Of a DNA stretch of 64,000 nucleotides, positions 38,831-46,476 are shown one piece after another (within the stretch, counting starts at the first letter, position 1; each line of letters opens with the position of its first letter). Below the pieces are notes generated by a model, which did not search any database, was not told the origin of the DNA, and saw nothing but the letters and a program-made list of their open reading frames with translations. Location: assembly GCA_903905455.1 (NCBI GenBank), contig CAIVGN010000032.1, positions 1-64,000 on the forward strand, read 5' to 3'. Both the position numbers and the translations under genes were made by a program. Source of the stretch: an uncultured Archangium sp. (GTDB lineage: Bacteria > Myxococcota > Myxococcia > Myxococcales > Myxococcaceae).

Positions 38831-40576
38831 TCAGGGCATCACGAGGTTGAACTCGACGCGGCGGTTGTTGTCGCGCCCCGCCGGCGTCTCGTTCGACTCG
38901 GCCGGCTTGTCCTGCCCGAAGCCCACCGCGCGCAGCCGGCCGTCGGCCACGCCCTTCTTCGCGAGGTAGCTCTTCACCGCGTCCGCGCGCTCCTGCGAGA
39001 GCTTCCTGTTCTTCTCCGCCACGCCGGTGTTGTCGGTGTGCCCCTCGATCTGCACCAGGGGGATCTCGGGGTGCACCACCAGCACCTGGGCCACGTTGTC
39101 GAGCAGCGCGAAGGAGCGCTTCTGGATGCTGGCCCGGCCCGTGTCGAAGTACACCTTGTCGAGGATCTTGAGCTTCTCGGCGGTGAGCACCACCAGCTGC
39201 TTCTTCGCGGCGGGGCAACCGAAGTTGTCCTTCACCCCGGCCTCGCTGGGGCAGTTGTCTTCGTGGTCGAACACGCTGTCGCCGTCGGAGTCCTTCGCGG
39301 GGCAGCCGTGCTCCTGGGCGATGCCGGCCACCAGCGGGCAGGCGTCGGCGCCGTCGGCGAAGCCGTCGCGGTCGTTGTCGAGCTCAGGGCAGCCGTCGGC
39401 GTCCTCGAAGTCGTCCTTGTCTTCGGCGGCGGCGGGGCACGCGTCGAGGCGGTCGACGATGCCGTCGTGGTCGGCGTCGGCGTCGGGGCAGCCGTGGTTC
39501 GCCGCCGGGCCCGCCACGTCGCGGCACTGGTCGGCGGTGTCGTTGACGCCGTCGCCGTCGTTGTCGAGGTCCGGCGCGCCGTCCTCGTCCTGGAAGCCGT
39601 CCTTGTCCTCGGCCTCGAGGGGCGCGCGATCCTTGCCGTTCTTCACACCGTCGCCGTCGCGGTCGAGCTCGGCGCAGTCGCTGACTTCATAGGGCTGGCC
39701 CTCGACGCACGGGGGCTGCGTCAGTGGCACGTTCGCGAAGGCCGCGCCGAGGTACGCGCGCAGCGAGGGGGTGGTCGACTCGCCGAAGAAGCCCGGGCCC
39801 GCGGCCGTGTACAGCTCCACCGGACCGGTGGGCCAGCGCACGCCGACGAGGCCTTCGATGCCGGGGCGGCCCGCGCCGGTCAGCGGCGCGAAGACCCGCA
39901 GGCTGAACTCGCCGCGCGGCCCCTCGGTGTTCACCCCGGCCACCATTGCGCCGAGCCACAGCTGGCTGCCGACGCGATCGCCGGTGCTGCCGGTGACGGC
40001 GGCGAAGTCGACGGTTGCGCGGTAGAGCACGCCGAGCTCGGCGCCGAACTGCCAGGCGTCGAAGACCTTGCCCAGCTGCACCCTGGGTGCGACCTCGAAG
40101 CCGCCGTTGCCCTGCGCCGCCGCCGTGCCCACGGGAATGCCGAGGCCCACGTCGATGGCCAGCGAGACGGGCTTGTGACCGTCGAGCAGCATCACCTTGC
40201 CGTGCAGCCACGGGTTGCCCAGGCCGGCCGAGGCCACGTTCAGCGCGGAGGTGCCCTGCTGGGCGACGAACACCGGCACGTTGGCGCTGACCTCGAGCCA
40301 GTCGAGGATGCCCACGGCGCCGAAGACCTGGAAGCCGAGGCGATCGCGCAGCATCACCGCCGTGGCCGTGCCCTGCTGCGACTGGAGGTTGCCGTAGGTG
40401 TAGAAGGCCGAGACCCCGGCCCGGTACGTCATGCCGGGCAGCGTCTGGCCGTTGCCCACGAGCAGCGAGCCGCGCCCCGCCGGGTCGAGCCACACCTGTT
40501 CGAGATCGGCTGCCGGGCTCACCTGGGCCATCGCCACCGACGCCATCACCACCGCTGCTGCACCAAGGATCTTCAC
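38831..40576 (-). CDS. OmpA-family outer membrane protein with TSP3 repeats
   Basis: A 581-aa exported protein: signal peptide cleaved after AVAMA, then a beta-rich N-terminal domain (about 25-295) resembling a small outer-membrane barrel. Four to five calcium-binding thrombospondin type 3 repeats follow (about 305-425, DRDGDGV and DNDGDGVNDTADQC types). The C-terminal OmpA peptidoglycan-binding domain is at about 450-578 (VYFDTGRASI, IEGHTDNTG, NRKLSQERADAV, NNRRVEF). Cell-envelope anchoring is expected. The GTG at 40576 has GAGGT about 7 nt upstream; a GTG two codons earlier is less favoured. Confidence 0.9.
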   Translation of the reverse strand: MKILGAAAVVMASVAMAQVSPAADLEQVWLDPAGRGSLLVGNGQTLPGMTYRAGVSAFYTYGNLQSQQGTATAVMLRDRLGFQVFGAVGILDWLEVSANVPVFVAQQGTSALNVASAGLGNPWLHGKVMLLDGHKPVSLAIDVGLGIPVGTAAAQGNGGFEVAPRVQLGKVFDAWQFGAELGVLYRATVDFAAVTGSTGDRVGSQLWLGAMVAGVNTEGPRGEFSLRVFAPLTGAGRPGIEGLVGVRWPTGPVELYTAAGPGFFGESTTPSLRAYLGAAFANVPLTQPPCVEGQPYEVSDCAELDRDGDGVKNGKDRAPLEAEDKDGFQDEDGAPDLDNDGDGVNDTADQCRDVAGPAANHGCPDADADHDGIVDRLDACPAAAEDKDDFEDADGCPELDNDRDGFADGADACPLVAGIAQEHGCPAKDSDGDSVFDHEDNCPSEAGVKDNFGCPAAKKQLVVLTAEKLKILDKVYFDTGRASIQKRSFALLDNVAQVLVVHPEIPLVQIEGHTDNTGVAEKNRKLSQERADAVKSYLAKKGVADGRLRAVGFGQDKPAESNETPAGRDNNRRVEFNLVMP

Positions 40577-40657
40577 GGGCACCTCGAGAATGGGACCGGG
40601 CCGGAGTTAACAGGGCGCGCCGCCTCACTCCACCATTGCCTCAAGCGAGCGCCCGGC

Positions 40658-43096
40658 CTACCGGAGCCGCGCCTCGAGGGCGGCGATGAGGGCGGCGATC
40701 GCCGCGTCGCCCCCCTGGTCGCGCCACGTGGTCGCGAAGGCGCGCACCTCGGCCTCGCCTGCCCCGGCCCCCGGGGCCCGCGCCTCGAGCACCAGGGCCA
40801 GCCGCGCCTGCGGCCAGGGGCCGTGGCCGAAGCCCACCTTGAGCGCCCGCGCCTGGATCACCGCGTCCGAGGGGCGCTCGAGCCAGGCCGAGGCCAGCGC
40901 GCGCACCAGCACCATGCGCGGCAGCTGCGCCGACGGCTCGCGGGCGGCGAGGCTGCGGGCGAGCTCGAAGTCGAAGGTGAAGAGGGCCGCCTCGGCGGTC
41001 AGCGGCGCGACCTCCTTGATGCCGCGCGCCTCGAAGCCCCGGGCCGAGACGAGCGCGTCGGCGAAGCGGCCGGCGAGCAGCTCGGCGCGCACCACGAGGC
41101 TCGCGAGTTCCGGCTTGTCGGGCCGGCGCCCGGAGGCCTCGAGGGCGAGCTGCCGCGCGATCTCCGCCTGGGCGTGCTGGCGCGGCACGTCGTTCCCCTC
41201 GAGGGCCTCGGCGAGCAAGAGCGAGACGCGGGCGGCGCTCACCTGGAGCTCGACGTCGTCCATCGCGCGCTCGCGCAGCAGGGCGAGCCGCTCGACCAGC
41301 GCCTCGAGCTCGGCGGTGGTGCTGCCCACGCGGTCGGCGCGCTCGGTCAACGCGCGCCCCAGCGTCTCGCGGCGCAGCACCTCGTCGGCGGGGTCCTTCG
41401 CGGTGGGCTCGAGGCGCGCGATGCCCTCGTCGAAGAGCGTGCGCGCCGCGGTGTCGTCGACGGTCTGCCGGGCCAGCGCCAACCGCGCCACCGCCCCCAG
41501 GCGCCTCGCCTCGAACGACCCGGCCTCGCGGTGCAGCGCCTCGTCGGCGCGGGCCACGGCGACGGTGGCCTCGCGGGCGATCTCCTCGACGGTGGCCCCG
41601 GGCGCCTCCACGCGGGCCACGGCGATCTCCGCGCGCACCAGCTCGGCCTCGGCGTCGCCTTCGGGCAGCGTGGCGGCGAGGGTGGTGGCGAGATCGAAGC
41701 TCTTGTGCGCTTCCTCGAGGCGGCCCAGCGAGAGCGACACGGTGCCCAGGCGGGCCATGGCCCGGGCCACGCGCAGGCGCTCTTCCCGCGGGGCGCTGCG
41801 CAGCTCGGTGGTGCGCTCGTAGTGCTGCAGGGCGGCGGCGGTGACGCGCTCGAGCAGGGGCTCGACGCCGGGCTGGGCGCGCAGCCTCAGCGCGACGTCG
41901 TCGAGGAACAGCCGAGCCAACTGCCGGGCGCGGTCGCGCTCTTCACGCACCCGCGAGGTCACCACGCCCGCACCGAGCGCCACCAGCAGGAAGGCGGTGA
42001 CCGCCATGGCGGTGAAGAGGCGGTGCCGCTGCACGTAGCGCTTGAGCAGCTGCCACGACGAGTAGCGGTAGCTGCCCAGGCGCCGGCCGTCGATGAAGGC
42101 CTTGAGCTCCTGCACGAACTGCTCGCAGCTCAGGGTGCCCGCGAGCGAGGTGCGGCACAGGCCGAGGAGATCTTCGGGTGCGCCGGCGACCCGCACGGTG
42201 CCCATCACCGGGGGCGGCAGGCCGGTGACCACTTCGTGGAGCATGGCGCCGAGCGCGCGCACGTCGGCCGCCTTCGCCTCGGGGCGCTCGCGCTCTTCGA
42301 CCGGCGGGCCCCAGCCGAGCACGTAGACCTCGCCGAAGCGGCCCAGCGAGATGCGGGCGCACGACAGGCCACGGTGCGTGACGCCGAGATCGTGGGCCTT
42401 GGAGAGGCACTGGGCGACGGTGTGCAGCGCCGGCAGCAGGTGGAGCCGCTCGTCGAGGCCGTTGGCCGCGGTGAGGGCCTGGGCGAGGGTCTGGGCGCCG
42501 ACGCGGCGCTCGGCGACGTACACGCCCTTCGCCCCGCGGCCCGCCTCGTACACCGGCACCACGGCGGGGTGGTCGAGGCCCGCGAGCAGCCGCGCCTCGT
42601 TCACCAACTGGGCGTCGCTCTCGGCCGAAGGCTCGAGGGGCTCGCGCCAGGCGACGTCGCGGCCGATGACCGTGTCGTGCATCAACACCACGCGGCTGAA
42701 GCGGCCGCGGCCCAGCTCGGCGGGGGGCTGATCGGCGCGCGGCGCGGCGAAGTAGCGGTGGGCCTGCTCGTCGACCAGGTCGACCCGGGGCGGGGCCGCG
42801 GGCACGGCCGGGGCGGTGCTCTGGGCAGCGAGTCGGCGAACGCTCGAGGGCAACAGCTCGAGGGTCTGGGCCGCGTCGCCGCCGCCTTCGGCCGAGGCCC
42901 GGGCGGCGAGGCGCTCGAGCACCTGGGCGCGCGCGCGATCGAGGAAGCCGCGCGAGACGAGGAACTCGCTGAGCGTGCGCTGCTCGCCGGGCTGGGCCAG
43001 CTCGCGGGCCGCGCCCAGGGCGTCTTCGGGCGAGAGGTAACCCAGCTGCACCCCGAGCACGGCGAGCAACAGGTCTGCGCTGCGCGGCTCGCTCAC
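40658..43096 (-). CDS. Transmembrane Ser/Thr pseudokinase, paralogue of upstream kinase
   Basis: An 812-aa protein. Residues 1-90 form a helical domain shared with the upstream kinase (LLAVLGVQLGYLSPEDA, TLSEFLVSRGFLD). A kinase-like fold lies at about 125-340: the glycine loop is kept (LGRGRFSRV), but the ATP-binding lysine is Trp (VAWRE, W150), HRD is HRG (241-243) and DFG is GWG (261-263). A single transmembrane helix (about 361-380) is followed by about 430 residues of helical, TPR-like repeats outside the membrane. All three catalytic residues are gone, so phosphotransfer is not expected; a scaffold or allosteric partner of the adjacent active kinase is likely. GTG 43096 has GAGGTG upstream and overlaps the stop of the 55-aa gene. 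Confidence 0.88.
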   Translation of the reverse strand: MSEPRSADLLLAVLGVQLGYLSPEDALGAARELAQPGEQRTLSEFLVSRGFLDRARAQVLERLAARASAEGGGDAAQTLELLPSSVRRLAAQSTAPAVPAAPPRVDLVDEQAHRYFAAPRADQPPAELGRGRFSRVVLMHDTVIGRDVAWREPLEPSAESDAQLVNEARLLAGLDHPAVVPVYEAGRGAKGVYVAERRVGAQTLAQALTAANGLDERLHLLPALHTVAQCLSKAHDLGVTHRGLSCARISLGRFGEVYVLGWGPPVEERERPEAKAADVRALGAMLHEVVTGLPPPVMGTVRVAGAPEDLLGLCRTSLAGTLSCEQFVQELKAFIDGRRLGSYRYSSWQLLKRYVQRHRLFTAMAVTAFLLVALGAGVVTSRVREERDRARQLARLFLDDVALRLRAQPGVEPLLERVTAAALQHYERTTELRSAPREERLRVARAMARLGTVSLSLGRLEEAHKSFDLATTLAATLPEGDAEAELVRAEIAVARVEAPGATVEEIAREATVAVARADEALHREAGSFEARRLGAVARLALARQTVDDTAARTLFDEGIARLEPTAKDPADEVLRRETLGRALTERADRVGSTTAELEALVERLALLRERAMDDVELQVSAARVSLLLAEALEGNDVPRQHAQAEIARQLALEASGRRPDKPELASLVVRAELLAGRFADALVSARGFEARGIKEVAPLTAEAALFTFDFELARSLAAREPSAQLPRMVLVRALASAWLERPSDAVIQARALKVGFGHGPWPQARLALVLEARAPGAGAGEAEVRAFATTWRDQGGDAAIAALIAALEARLR

Positions 43097-43260
43097 GATC
43101 GCACCTCGCCGGGCGTCAGCGGGGCCAGCGGCCACATCGCGCACAACCCCAGGACGCCCTGGGCCGGCTTCGGCGGGGTGAGGGCCCAGGCCGCGCTCGA
43201 CCCGTGCGCGCGCTCGCCCGGCGCCGGCGGGGCGAGGGGCCACATCGCCAGCTCCGTCAC
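43093..43260 (-). CDS. 55-aa small protein between kinase and pseudokinase
   Basis: A short frame fills the gap between the two kinase genes exactly. Its GTG (43260) overlaps the kinase TGA as GTGA and its TGA (43095-43093) overlaps the pseudokinase GTG as GTGA, so it is in a position for translational coupling on both sides. The 55 residues contain an internal repeat: AMWPLAPPAPGER near the start, AWALTPPKPAQG in the middle and AMWPLAPLTPGEV near the end. It is Pro/Ala/Trp-rich, with no signal peptide. I do not recognise it. Without the precise overlaps it could be dismissed as a linker; the repeat and the coupling are the reasons to call it. Confidence 0.6.
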   Translation of the reverse strand: MTELAMWPLAPPAPGERAHGSSAAWALTPPKPAQGVLGLCAMWPLAPLTPGEVRS

Positions 43261-46022
43261 GGGGCCCCCTTGAGCGCCGCGCCGAGGCCCTCGAGGCCCC
43301 GGGTCACGCCAGCCGCGTCACCGGCGCTCAGCGGGTGGTCGAGGGCCAGCTGCCGCAGCAGGGCCGCCGGTGCGTCGTCGCGCCCCTCGAGCCGGTGGAG
43401 CAGCGCCCCCGGGAGCCAGGTGGCGACGTCGCCGCACTTGAGCTCGAGGCACTGCGAGAGGTGGGCCCGCGCGACCTGATCGTTGCCGGCCAGCACCTCG
43501 ACGAGGGCGCCGTAGAGCAGCGCGGTCGCGGTGGTCGAGGTCGAGGTCGAGGTCGAGGGCCGGCGCAGGTATTCGCGGATCAGCTCGTCGCGTCCGGTGG
43601 CGAAGGCCGCGATGAGCACGGGCTCCGCGTACTCCGCGCCCAGCTGCTCGGCCTCGATGCGCGCCGCCCACATCCAGGCGGCGTCGTAGTCGTCGTCGAG
43701 CACCGCGAGCACCACCATCTCGCTGAGCTCGTAGTTGCGCCCCGCGTCGGCGAGCAGCAGGTCACTGAGCAGGCGCCGGGCCTCGCGCACCACGCGCCGG
43801 CGCTCGTCGCCTTCCTTCACGGGGTCGAGGGCCCGCGCCAGGGTGCTCAGCACGCCGGCGTGGCTGGCCTGTAACGAGCGGGCATCGCGCTGGGCCCGCA
43901 TCTTCTGGGCGAGGCCCACCGCGTCGCGCAGCGTGCGCAGGGCCTCGGCGCGCTCTCCGAGGGTGAGCAAGGCGAGGCCGAGGTCGTTGCTGTCGTCGAT
44001 GATCGCCGCCGCGGCGCGCGGAGATTCGGGGGCGAGCCGGTACCAGGCCCAGGCCGCCTCGCGGGCGCGCCGGGTCATCTCGACGGCCAGCCGCAGCTCG
44101 CCCCGCGACGCGCGCAGCACCCCCACGCGCGAGAGCACCAGGTTCTGGGCCGCGAGTACCGGCACCGAGGTCGGCGCGAGCACCCGCAGGCGCTGCGCCC
44201 GGTCGACGAGGCCCTCGAGCAGGGTGAGGGCGTCGCCCTCCGCGCCCTCGTCGATGAGCAGGTCCGAGCGCCAGGCCTGGTACTCGAGCTCGATGGTGTT
44301 CACCTCGACGTCGTCGGGGCGCTGGGCCAGCAGCGGGGTGAGCAGGCGCGCGGCCTGGTCGAGGCCGGCCTTCGCGTCGTCCCGCTGGCCCAGGCGCCAG
44401 CGCTGGTGGGCGACGTCTGTCCACGCTCCGGCGAGGAGCACCCGGTCGTCGCGCGCGCCGCGCTCGGGGTCGACGTCGCGAGAGAAGGCCTCGAGGGCGT
44501 TGTGAGAGAGCTGGCCCAGCACCTCGGCGGTGCCCGGCACGTCGGCGAGCGTGGGCGCGACGTCGGCGAGGAAGAAGCGCGCCAGGCCCCGCGCGTCGTC
44601 GCGTTCGCGGCCCACGCCGACGGTGGACACCACGGTGAGCACGGCCAGGGTCACCGCGGTGGCGGCGGCGAGCAGGGCCTTGCCGCGGTGCCGCTTGAGC
44701 ACGCGCGAGGCGACCTCGCGGAACGAGTAGTCGTAGGCCTGCACGCGCCGCCCCGCGAGGAAGGCCTCGAGCTCGAGGGCCAGCTCCCCGGCGTGGGCGT
44801 AGCGGTGCTCCCGGTTCCACGCGAGGGCGCGCTCGCAGACGGCGACCAACTCGGGCGGGGCCAGCGGCTCGAGGGAGAGCACCGGCGGCGGCGGCCGCGA
44901 GCGCACCTCGGCCAGCACGTCCCACGGGCTGCGGCCGACGTAGGGCGCGCGCCCGGTGAGGATCTCGAAGAGCATCGCGCCCAGGCCCCACACGTCGGAC
45001 CGGGCGTCGAGCTCGTCGCGGTTGCCCAGGGCCTGCTCCGGGGACATGTACGAGGGCGTGCCCACCGGCCCCAGGTCGCGGCCGCCGGTGAGGTCGGGCG
45101 CGAGCTGCACGCTGGTCCTGGCGCGATCGGCGCGGCCCATCACCCGGGCCAGCCCCCAGTCCATCACGTAGGTCTCGCCGTAGGGGCCGAGCATCACGTT
45201 CTGCGGCTTCAGGTCGCGGTGCACCACGTCGCGGTGGTGCGCGGCGGCGAGCGCGTGACAGGCGGTGAGCAGGTCGGGCACGAAGGAGAGGCGGCCCTCG
45301 CGGCTGGGCGCGTCGGCGAGCGCCTGGGCCAGGGTGCGGCCGCGGATGCGGCGCATGGTGTAATACAGCGTGCCGTCGCGGCGCCGCCCCAGCTCGTAGA
45401 CCGGCACGATGGCCGGGTGCTCGAGCTGGCCGGTGACCCGGGCCTCGCGCAGGAACCGGGCCTCGAGGTTGCGCACGTGGAGCGTGTCGAACTTCACGTT
45501 CTGGGTGATCTCGCGGTGCAGCTCCTTCATCGCCACGTCGCGCGAGAGGAAGTGATCGCGGGCCACCACCACCCGCCCTGCCCCGCCGCGGCCCAGCTCT
45601 TCCATGCGGCCCTTGCGGCCGGTGTCGAAGCTGTAGCGCCCCTTGGCTTCGACACCGATGTTCTCCGGCGTCTCGAGGCTGTCGAAGGAGGTGGTGGAGG
45701 TCAGCTCGAGCTTCTGCGGCGTGGCCCCGGGGCGCAGGGTGTCGGTGAGGCCCGAGAGGCTGTCTTGCGAGCGCTGGGGCAGGCTGTGGAGGGTGGTGGC
45801 CGCGTCGCCGCCGTGGGCCGCGATGGCCTCGCTGACCAGCGCGTCGACCAGCTGCACCTGCTTCTCGTCGAGCAGCCCGCGCGAGCGGAGCACGTCCTTC
45901 AAGGTCGCGCCGGTCTCGCGCTGCACCAGCCACTGGGCACCGGCGGCCATCACTTCACTGGCGGGCGCGAAGCCGAGCTGCTGCACGAAGAGCGCCTCGA
46001 GCAGGTCGCGGTCAGTCGTCAC
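43257..46022 (-). CDS. Transmembrane Ser/Thr protein kinase with TPR-like sensor
   Basis: A 921-aa kinase. Residues 1-90 form the helical domain shared with the downstream pseudokinase. The kinase domain (about 138-425) is intact: GRGGAG loop (144-149), K166 (VAMKEL), HRDLKPQN (D270), DWG in place of DFG (D288, catalytic Asp kept) and GTPSYMSPEQ. One transmembrane helix at about 449-470 is followed by about 450 residues of TPR-like helical repeats. It includes a run of Ser-Thr alternations near residue 835 encoded by a simple GTCGAG repeat. GTG 46022 has GGAGGG upstream and overlaps the lipoprotein gene by 11 bp. It is probably the active member of the kinase/pseudokinase pair. Confidence 0.93.
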   Translation of the reverse strand: MTTDRDLLEALFVQQLGFAPASEVMAAGAQWLVQRETGATLKDVLRSRGLLDEKQVQLVDALVSEAIAAHGGDAATTLHSLPQRSQDSLSGLTDTLRPGATPQKLELTSTTSFDSLETPENIGVEAKGRYSFDTGRKGRMEELGRGGAGRVVVARDHFLSRDVAMKELHREITQNVKFDTLHVRNLEARFLREARVTGQLEHPAIVPVYELGRRRDGTLYYTMRRIRGRTLAQALADAPSREGRLSFVPDLLTACHALAAAHHRDVVHRDLKPQNVMLGPYGETYVMDWGLARVMGRADRARTSVQLAPDLTGGRDLGPVGTPSYMSPEQALGNRDELDARSDVWGLGAMLFEILTGRAPYVGRSPWDVLAEVRSRPPPPVLSLEPLAPPELVAVCERALAWNREHRYAHAGELALELEAFLAGRRVQAYDYSFREVASRVLKRHRGKALLAAATAVTLAVLTVVSTVGVGRERDDARGLARFFLADVAPTLADVPGTAEVLGQLSHNALEAFSRDVDPERGARDDRVLLAGAWTDVAHQRWRLGQRDDAKAGLDQAARLLTPLLAQRPDDVEVNTIELEYQAWRSDLLIDEGAEGDALTLLEGLVDRAQRLRVLAPTSVPVLAAQNLVLSRVGVLRASRGELRLAVEMTRRAREAAWAWYRLAPESPRAAAAIIDDSNDLGLALLTLGERAEALRTLRDAVGLAQKMRAQRDARSLQASHAGVLSTLARALDPVKEGDERRRVVREARRLLSDLLLADAGRNYELSEMVVLAVLDDDYDAAWMWAARIEAEQLGAEYAEPVLIAAFATGRDELIREYLRRPSTSTSTSTTATALLYGALVEVLAGNDQVARAHLSQCLELKCGDVATWLPGALLHRLEGRDDAPAALLRQLALDHPLSAGDAAGVTRGLEGLGAALKGAP

Positions 46023-46476
46023 GGCGCCCTCCGTCGAGGTGCTCGTCGCCGTGCGAGATGAGCAGCTCGAGCTTCTCGGCGCGGAACCGGCAGGCCTCGA
46101 GGGCCACCAGGGTGTTGCGGTCGAGGCCCCCGTCGGCGCCGGCGAGCGTGGCCAGGCGGGCGCACGAGGCGAGCAGGGCCTCGAGCTGCGGGTCGCGGCG
46201 GCCGTTGGGCCCCAGGGCCAGCGGGGTGCGCACCCGGGCCGCGCGCCCGCCCTCGATGCTGGCCTCGAGCTTCTGCGCCGCGGCGAAGTGTTTCGAGGCC
46301 GGCGTCACCTTCGCCAGCTCGGCGAGCACCGGGTCGAAGCGGGGGTCTTCGGGGCGGGCGAGCTGGTCGATGAGGGCGCGGTGCTGCAGCTGCGCGCGCG
46401 CGAACGCCTCGGCCTCCACGTCGCGACACGACGAGAGGAGCAACACCAACGCGAGGAGGGCAGCGGACCGGGACAC
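46012..46476 (-). CDS. Small lipoprotein upstream of kinase operon
   Basis: A 154-aa exported protein: signal VSRSAALLALVLLLSSC with lipobox LSSC (C17), then a charged, helix-rich domain (about 20-150) without known motifs. The GTG start has no strong ribosome binding site. It overlaps the kinase gene by 11 bp, so it is the first gene of the lipoprotein-kinase-55 aa-pseudokinase unit. A lipoprotein that contacts the extracytoplasmic TPR region of the kinases is an attractive but untested idea. Confidence 0.75.
   Translation of the reverse strand: MSRSAALLALVLLLSSCRDVEAEAFARAQLQHRALIDQLARPEDPRFDPVLAELAKVTPASKHFAAAQKLEASIEGGRAARVRTPLALGPNGRRDPQLEALLASCARLATLAGADGGLDRNTLVALEACRFRAEKLELLISHGDEHLDGGRRDD

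Follow-up and report, generated by a model that had tools for sequence, protein, structure and literature searches.

The locus raises the question of what a transmembrane protein with a degenerate kinase domain is doing beside an intact relative, and whether it is a gene being lost or one that is kept. The window, the whole 64,000-nucleotide stretch analysed, comes from an uncultured Archangium sp., and the genes concerned, with the parts of them referred to below, are as follows.

46012..46476, minus strand: Lip, a small lipoprotein-like gene with LLSSC near its N-terminus, sharing 11 bases with the start of A
43257..46022, minus strand: gene A, an intact transmembrane Ser/Thr kinase of 921 aa (sequence, Pfam and model)
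44748..45608, minus strand: residues 139-425 of A, kinase domain with a complete catalytic set, closest solved relative PknB
40658..43096, minus strand: gene B, a transmembrane pseudokinase of 812 aa, with a GTG start at 43096
42824..43096, minus strand: residues 1-91 of B, helical N-terminal domain common to A and B (alignment and model)
42062..42775, minus strand: residues 108-345 of B, pseudokinase domain (AlphaFold2 model and structural alignment to PknB, 1mru)
42644..42646, minus strand: R151 of B, at the VAIK lysine position (alignment; K in the other four orthologues)
42368..42376, minus strand: H241-R242-G243 of B, degenerate HRD motif (alignment)
42308..42316, minus strand: G261-W262-G263 of B, degenerate DFG motif, DWG in A (alignment)
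41960..42019, minus strand: residues 360-379 of B, single transmembrane segment (hydrophobic stretch read from the sequence; helix 359-402 in the model)
38831..40582, minus strand: OmpA-family protein with TSP3 repeats (Pfam OmpA 81.7 bits, TSP_3 47.3 bits), its position conserved

The start of B is most likely the homologous GTG at 43096 and not the mechanical ORF start at 43243. The first-pass annotation gave A and B one architecture, and this is confirmed for the two genes, which lie on the same strand: both have a helical N-terminal domain, a kinase fold, a single transmembrane segment and a periplasmic part of helical repeats (Pfam TPR matches are under the cut-off), and the structure model of A has the same domain order as B. 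The two proteins are 31% identical across the first ~590 residues of A (BLASTP E 2e-52), the alignment running from the N-terminus through the transmembrane segment. The N-terminal domain has no Pfam match and no PDB sequence match up to E 5. Pfam finds no PASTA repeats in either protein and both score below the 450-bit cut-off of the Stk1/PknB equivalog NF033483 (A 204 bits, B 46 bits); neither is classed as a PASTA kinase.

The kinase domain of A (Pfam Pkinase, 102.5 bits) has as its closest solved match PknB (E 3e-39), and alignment finds all its motifs intact (VAMK, the αC Glu, HRDLKPQN, DWG, GTPSYMSPE and DVW), as had been claimed from the first reading. Its VAIK Lys, HRD Asp, HRDxxxxN Asn, DFG Asp and activation segment are present in all five A orthologues, and judged by these residues A would be an active Ser/Thr kinase. 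In B, Pfam Pkinase matches the first half of the kinase domain only, at 33.5 bits against a cut-off of 31.7.

Whole genomes of the family and order were searched for orthologues of B, and 84,980 species genomes were scanned by pattern. The window's genome (G000) is an 8.6-Mb draft with ~137 Pkinase matches, and the close relatives that bear names, Archangium sp. and Myxococcales, are metagenome-assembled genomes. Four further B genes were found, two in the window's genus (G011 and G010) and two in other genera (G046 and G088), which makes five from three genera, all in metagenome-assembled or draft genomes.

Comparison of the five separates what is general in B from what is peculiar to the window copy (residues are listed in the order G000, G011, G010, G088, G046). 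The DFG Asp, given as lost from the GWG of the window copy, is indeed gone throughout (G, G, G, G, E), as are the HRDxxxxN Asn and the entire activation segment, so that both metal-binding side chains are missing in every copy. The HRD Asp position reads G, R, R, A, D: its loss, correctly called from HRG in the window, extends to four copies but is not universal, since G046 keeps the Asp. The G046 copy suggests an order of loss, in which the DFG Asp, Asn and activation segment went first and the HRD Asp later. The lysine, in contrast, had been misplaced by one residue; V148-A149-W150-R151 aligns with VAMK, so that W150 falls on the third residue of the motif and R151 on the lysine. Nor is this loss a family trait, as the site reads R, K, K, K, K. 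The HR pair of HRD is kept in all five, the αC Glu in three, and the αF Asp is also among the features kept.

Two deletions, which the first-pass annotation passed over along with the loss of the Asn, are stronger than these point changes. From GWG to the αF Asp, B is ~38 residues shorter than A, the activation segment being gone, and a further ~17 residues are deleted in the αG region. Conservation is uneven: of 30 positions in the catalytic and activation region that hardly vary among intact relatives, the five B all keep 5, against 28 of 65 in the rest of the kinase domain. In the G010 copy (L032, around 10200) low-complexity filler, GVEGRGRGGPSTSPG..., stands where the other B lack the activation segment.

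By these residues B would not be an active Ser/Thr kinase, and because no orthologue has either metal ligand or an activation segment, phosphate transfer in the known way is not expected. B might instead still bind nucleotide, or be a transferase of altered activity in the manner of SelO or SidJ, and the VAIK lysine in four copies, the αC Glu in three and the HRD Asp in one could be read that way. The first-pass annotation took a retained glycine loop as a hint of nucleotide binding. The loop is partly kept in the window copy (GRGRFS), as stated, but is degenerate in two orthologues (ARSVTG, GDTQTG), which together with the absent metal-binding side chains leaves that suggestion unsupported. 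With the Asn and DFG Asp gone from all five, no activation segment and no acidic residues shared by the five that could stand in for the lost ones in the cleft, residual activity is very unlikely.

The fold itself is predicted to be kept. An AlphaFold2 model of B built with 20 sequences has a mean pLDDT of 85, with the pseudokinase domain mostly at 87-96. It contains β1-β5, αC, αD-αF and two more C-lobe helices; the activation segment and αG region are missing in model and alignment alike, and β6-β7 run almost straight into αF. PknB entries are the top structural matches of the model (Foldseek and VIA), residues 109-344 superimposing on PknB 1mru with Z = 22.5 and r.m.s.d. = 3.2 over 227 residues in a structural alignment of the predicted model (VIA). 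PknB is also the best solved match of the B profile (E 5e-15). The model thus has B as a bilobal, PknB-like Hanks-type kinase fold.

Catalytic losses and an evolution faster than that of A are what a decaying duplicate of A, a pseudogene in progress, would also display. In a tree of 27 sequences, the five B form one clade of single origin (100/100) and the five A orthologues another (100/100), and the two clades branch alike: G046, then G088, then G000, then G010 with G011. Branches of B are about two to three times longer than those of A (the G000 tip is 0.25 in B and 0.10 in A). A direct origin of B by duplication of A gets no clear support from this tree, in which the stem of B is long (0.86) and B is not sister to A. 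All B orthologues have intact open frames of 812-853 residues. Between G011 and G010, the only pair from which dN/dS was taken, the ratio for B is 0.15 in the N-lobe, 0.17 in the C-lobe and 0.34 in the periplasmic part; pairs with G000 or G046 were dropped as unreliable, since their third-position GC is extreme and the apparent ratio approaches or exceeds 1 even for some stretches of A. The G011-G010 values indicate that B is maintained under purifying selection, its pseudokinase domain more constrained than the outer part. Not one of the five orthologues retains the DFG Asp, the Asn or the activation segment, the finding by which recent decay was to be told from a stable pseudokinase, and recent decay is excluded. 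With losses common to three genera, intact frames, purifying selection and a fold predicted to be kept, decay in progress is an extremely improbable account of B; the monophyly and shared losses point, with the open frames and the selection, to a stable pseudokinase lineage.

That this lineage sits beside an intact paralogue, as first proposed, holds for four of the five genomes, and the fifth (G088) keeps both genes. The order Lip-A-B-OmpA is found in G000, G010, G011 and G046. In the window, B starts 160 bases past A and the OmpA gene 75 bases past B, and in G046 the start of B overlaps the stop of A; the spacing fits a single operon. The wider flanks (thiolase, rhomboid-like and response regulator genes) are common to the genus and were not found around the G046 set. 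Lip has no Pfam match and is present in 75 of 96 genomes of the family, one copy each. It is an uncharacterised core envelope gene that in many genomes adjoins the OmpA gene or an S1/P1-like gene.

Of the 145 genomes of the order, the five that have a member of the A clade are also the five that have B. The A-like genes of G047 and G052 are not cases of A without B, as both lie outside the A clade (the G047 contig ends just past the gene). In G009, which belongs to the window's genus and has the same flanks, OmpA comes immediately after Lip and neither kinase is there. In G088, Lip-A and B-OmpA form separate loci. Lip-A lies on one contig; an N-terminal part of B is at the edge of another, beside a divergent gene that by reading resembles aceK, and a third contig has at its edge a B-like C-terminal half with OmpA next in line. 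The split in G088 depends on these contig edges and, like the joint absence in G009, comes from a draft metagenome-assembled genome. On this evidence the two kinases are present or absent together, and they need not be neighbours. A tree based on OmpA allows a history of one gain with a loss in G009, among other histories.

The G088 arrangement, in which OmpA follows B apart from A and A sits with Lip, would suit a B that is independent of A: it would be linked to OmpA and serve in the periplasm as sensor or adaptor, its kinase fold a mere membrane-proximal scaffold. The EssB/YukC pseudokinase is such a scaffold without a kinase partner (PMC12599244). Against this, the A clade co-occurs with B in five of five genomes, both are absent together from G009, and their trees are congruent, which makes independence unlikely.

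The simplest reading has B as a partner of A. With moderate confidence we regard B as an old transmembrane pseudokinase, maintained by selection, that assists A without catalysis of its own in a module for envelope sensing (lipoprotein, A, B and OmpA/TSP3). This reading draws on the co-occurrence with A, the conserved neighbourhood and what B retains, namely the fold, the HR pair, the αF Asp and the dimer-face residues, the last retained also by A: at the positions of PknB R10, L33, R35 and D76, all A and B in the alignment have R, L/I/F, R and E respectively. In the B of the window, R114, I144 and E184 correspond to R10, L33 and D76. Activation of PknB has been proposed to proceed via dimerisation (PMC6428115; PMC6333020), and the mutants L33D and D76A were constructed for dimerization studies (PMC8541300). 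With these residues kept in both proteins, the allosteric switch suggested by the first-pass annotation is plausible. On the other side, PknB-like kinases have these dimer-face residues in common, so that keeping the fold may be enough to account for them; B has the faster evolution of the two, A and B stand apart in G088, and the genomes number only five. Lip and OmpA need not belong to the A-B function, since the two adjoin where both kinases are absent (in G009, and also in G052, G091 and G095).

As a partner, B would form a hetero-oligomer with A in the inner membrane, with contacts at three places: the N-terminal domains, an N-lobe face used back to back as in PknB, and the helical repeats in the periplasm. 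Lacking an activation segment, B can be neither a T-loop substrate nor a phosphotransfer partner. It would act only by holding A in, or releasing it from, a given conformation, or by recruiting a target. Periplasmic signals, perhaps via the lipoprotein and the peptidoglycan-binding OmpA protein, would set the autophosphorylation of A, which B may either activate or restrain. A stronger form of the proposal, which we put forward tentatively as a possibility, is that the A-B heteromer is obligate and forms a transmembrane receptor, the bacterial equivalent of the metazoan pairs of active and pseudokinase receptors. B without its activation segment would be the fixed allosteric partner, the lipoprotein and the peptidoglycan-binding OmpA would connect with the receptor across the envelope, and the whole would be gained and lost as a unit.

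B might alternatively be a docking scaffold or substrate of A and not its regulator. A would phosphorylate the tail, linker or juxtamembrane part of B, which would then recruit an effector, in the way of PknB and the MviN pseudokinase domain. MviN is a membrane protein with an activation-loop deletion that is phosphorylated by PknB to recruit FhaA (PMC12599244), and B too keeps the kinase fold and lies beside A. The B linker (residues 86-124), however, is poorly conserved (29% identity between G000 and G046), no conserved Ser/Thr docking tail was identified in B, and the N-terminal domain and periplasmic part common to A and B argue for a structural sibling; we consider the scaffold or substrate role unlikely.

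The kinome of the window's genome, from which a partial sample was taken as a baseline, contains other degenerate kinases. One on contig C234 (93949-95691; L106, 1950-3692), with HGE, no DFG ('LWDMP') and an unmatched N-lobe, lies just upstream of an intact kinase on the same strand (96698-99442; L106, 4699-7443), a possible second pseudokinase-kinase pair. Contigs C196, C47, C82 and C148 (L108, L110, L111 and L115) carry degenerate or atypical kinase domains with HGD or HGA and a mostly altered DFG (for example ITGYG, LDAG, EAIG), and these make for several pseudokinase candidates. An ORF of ~180 aa on C41 (L117, 2139-2681) holds a kinase N-lobe only, with VAFQ for VAIK; it is a truncated gene, an assembly effect or another degenerate kinase.

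Bacterial Ser/Thr pseudokinases have been catalogued, nearly all of them without known function (PMC12599244), and the B lineage has a clear candidate partner in its intact sibling A. Nature supplies both a joint absence of A and B in the same genus (G009) and a separation in another (G088), and the set makes directly testable the idea of a bacterial pseudokinase that regulates an active receptor kinase by hetero-dimerisation. Searches of open-access literature turned up no direct precedent for bacterial or myxobacterial kinase-pseudokinase gene pairs.

Among catalogued families, ActPs3/MviN resembles B in its degenerate motifs, its hallmark activation-loop deletion and, in many members, a transmembrane segment C-terminal to the domain (PMC12599244). 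It differs in having VALT and a wholly altered HRD region and in being mainly actinobacterial (PMC12599244), whereas B has VA-x-K in four of five copies, HR in all, and an active sibling alongside. B thus has the activation-loop deletion of ActPs3, but its three motifs are not all fully degraded as they are there (VALT, no HRD). EssB/YukC of type VII secretion is, like B, a membrane pseudokinase with a degraded glycine loop and shortened activation loop and acts as a scaffold, but it is part of a secretion system, has a different outer part and lacks an active kinase sibling (PMC12599244). EcpK, a tyrosine pseudokinase of Myxococcus xanthus, is likewise myxobacterial and works by binding a membrane partner; its BY-kinase fold is unrelated to Hanks-type kinases (PMC12004946). 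Compared on motifs only, none of ActPs1-3, GLW, DLHK, DYD and CP1 fits B. DLHK keeps the HRD Asp and Asn and has no transmembrane segment, whereas B has lost the Asn and has the segment; GLW has GLW for HRD and poly-Leu for the Lys strand, where B has HRG, HRR, HRA or HRD; ActPs2 has Lys to Arg, HRD to HRN and a long activation-loop insertion, where B has Arg in the window copy only, HRG/R/A and a deletion. The PknB-type receptor Ser/Thr kinases of Mycobacterium share with A and B the kinase fold, the single transmembrane segment C-terminal to it and the dimer-face residues; A and B differ from them in lacking PASTA domains, in their helical-repeat periplasmic part and in the extra N-terminal domain, and B also in lacking the catalytic machinery. 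Eukaryotic receptor pairs such as HER2-HER3 and EFR-BAK1 join an active receptor kinase to a membrane-spanning partner that acts without catalysis. Pairs of this type are the template of the working model for A and B, as an analogy and not by common descent of the pairing.
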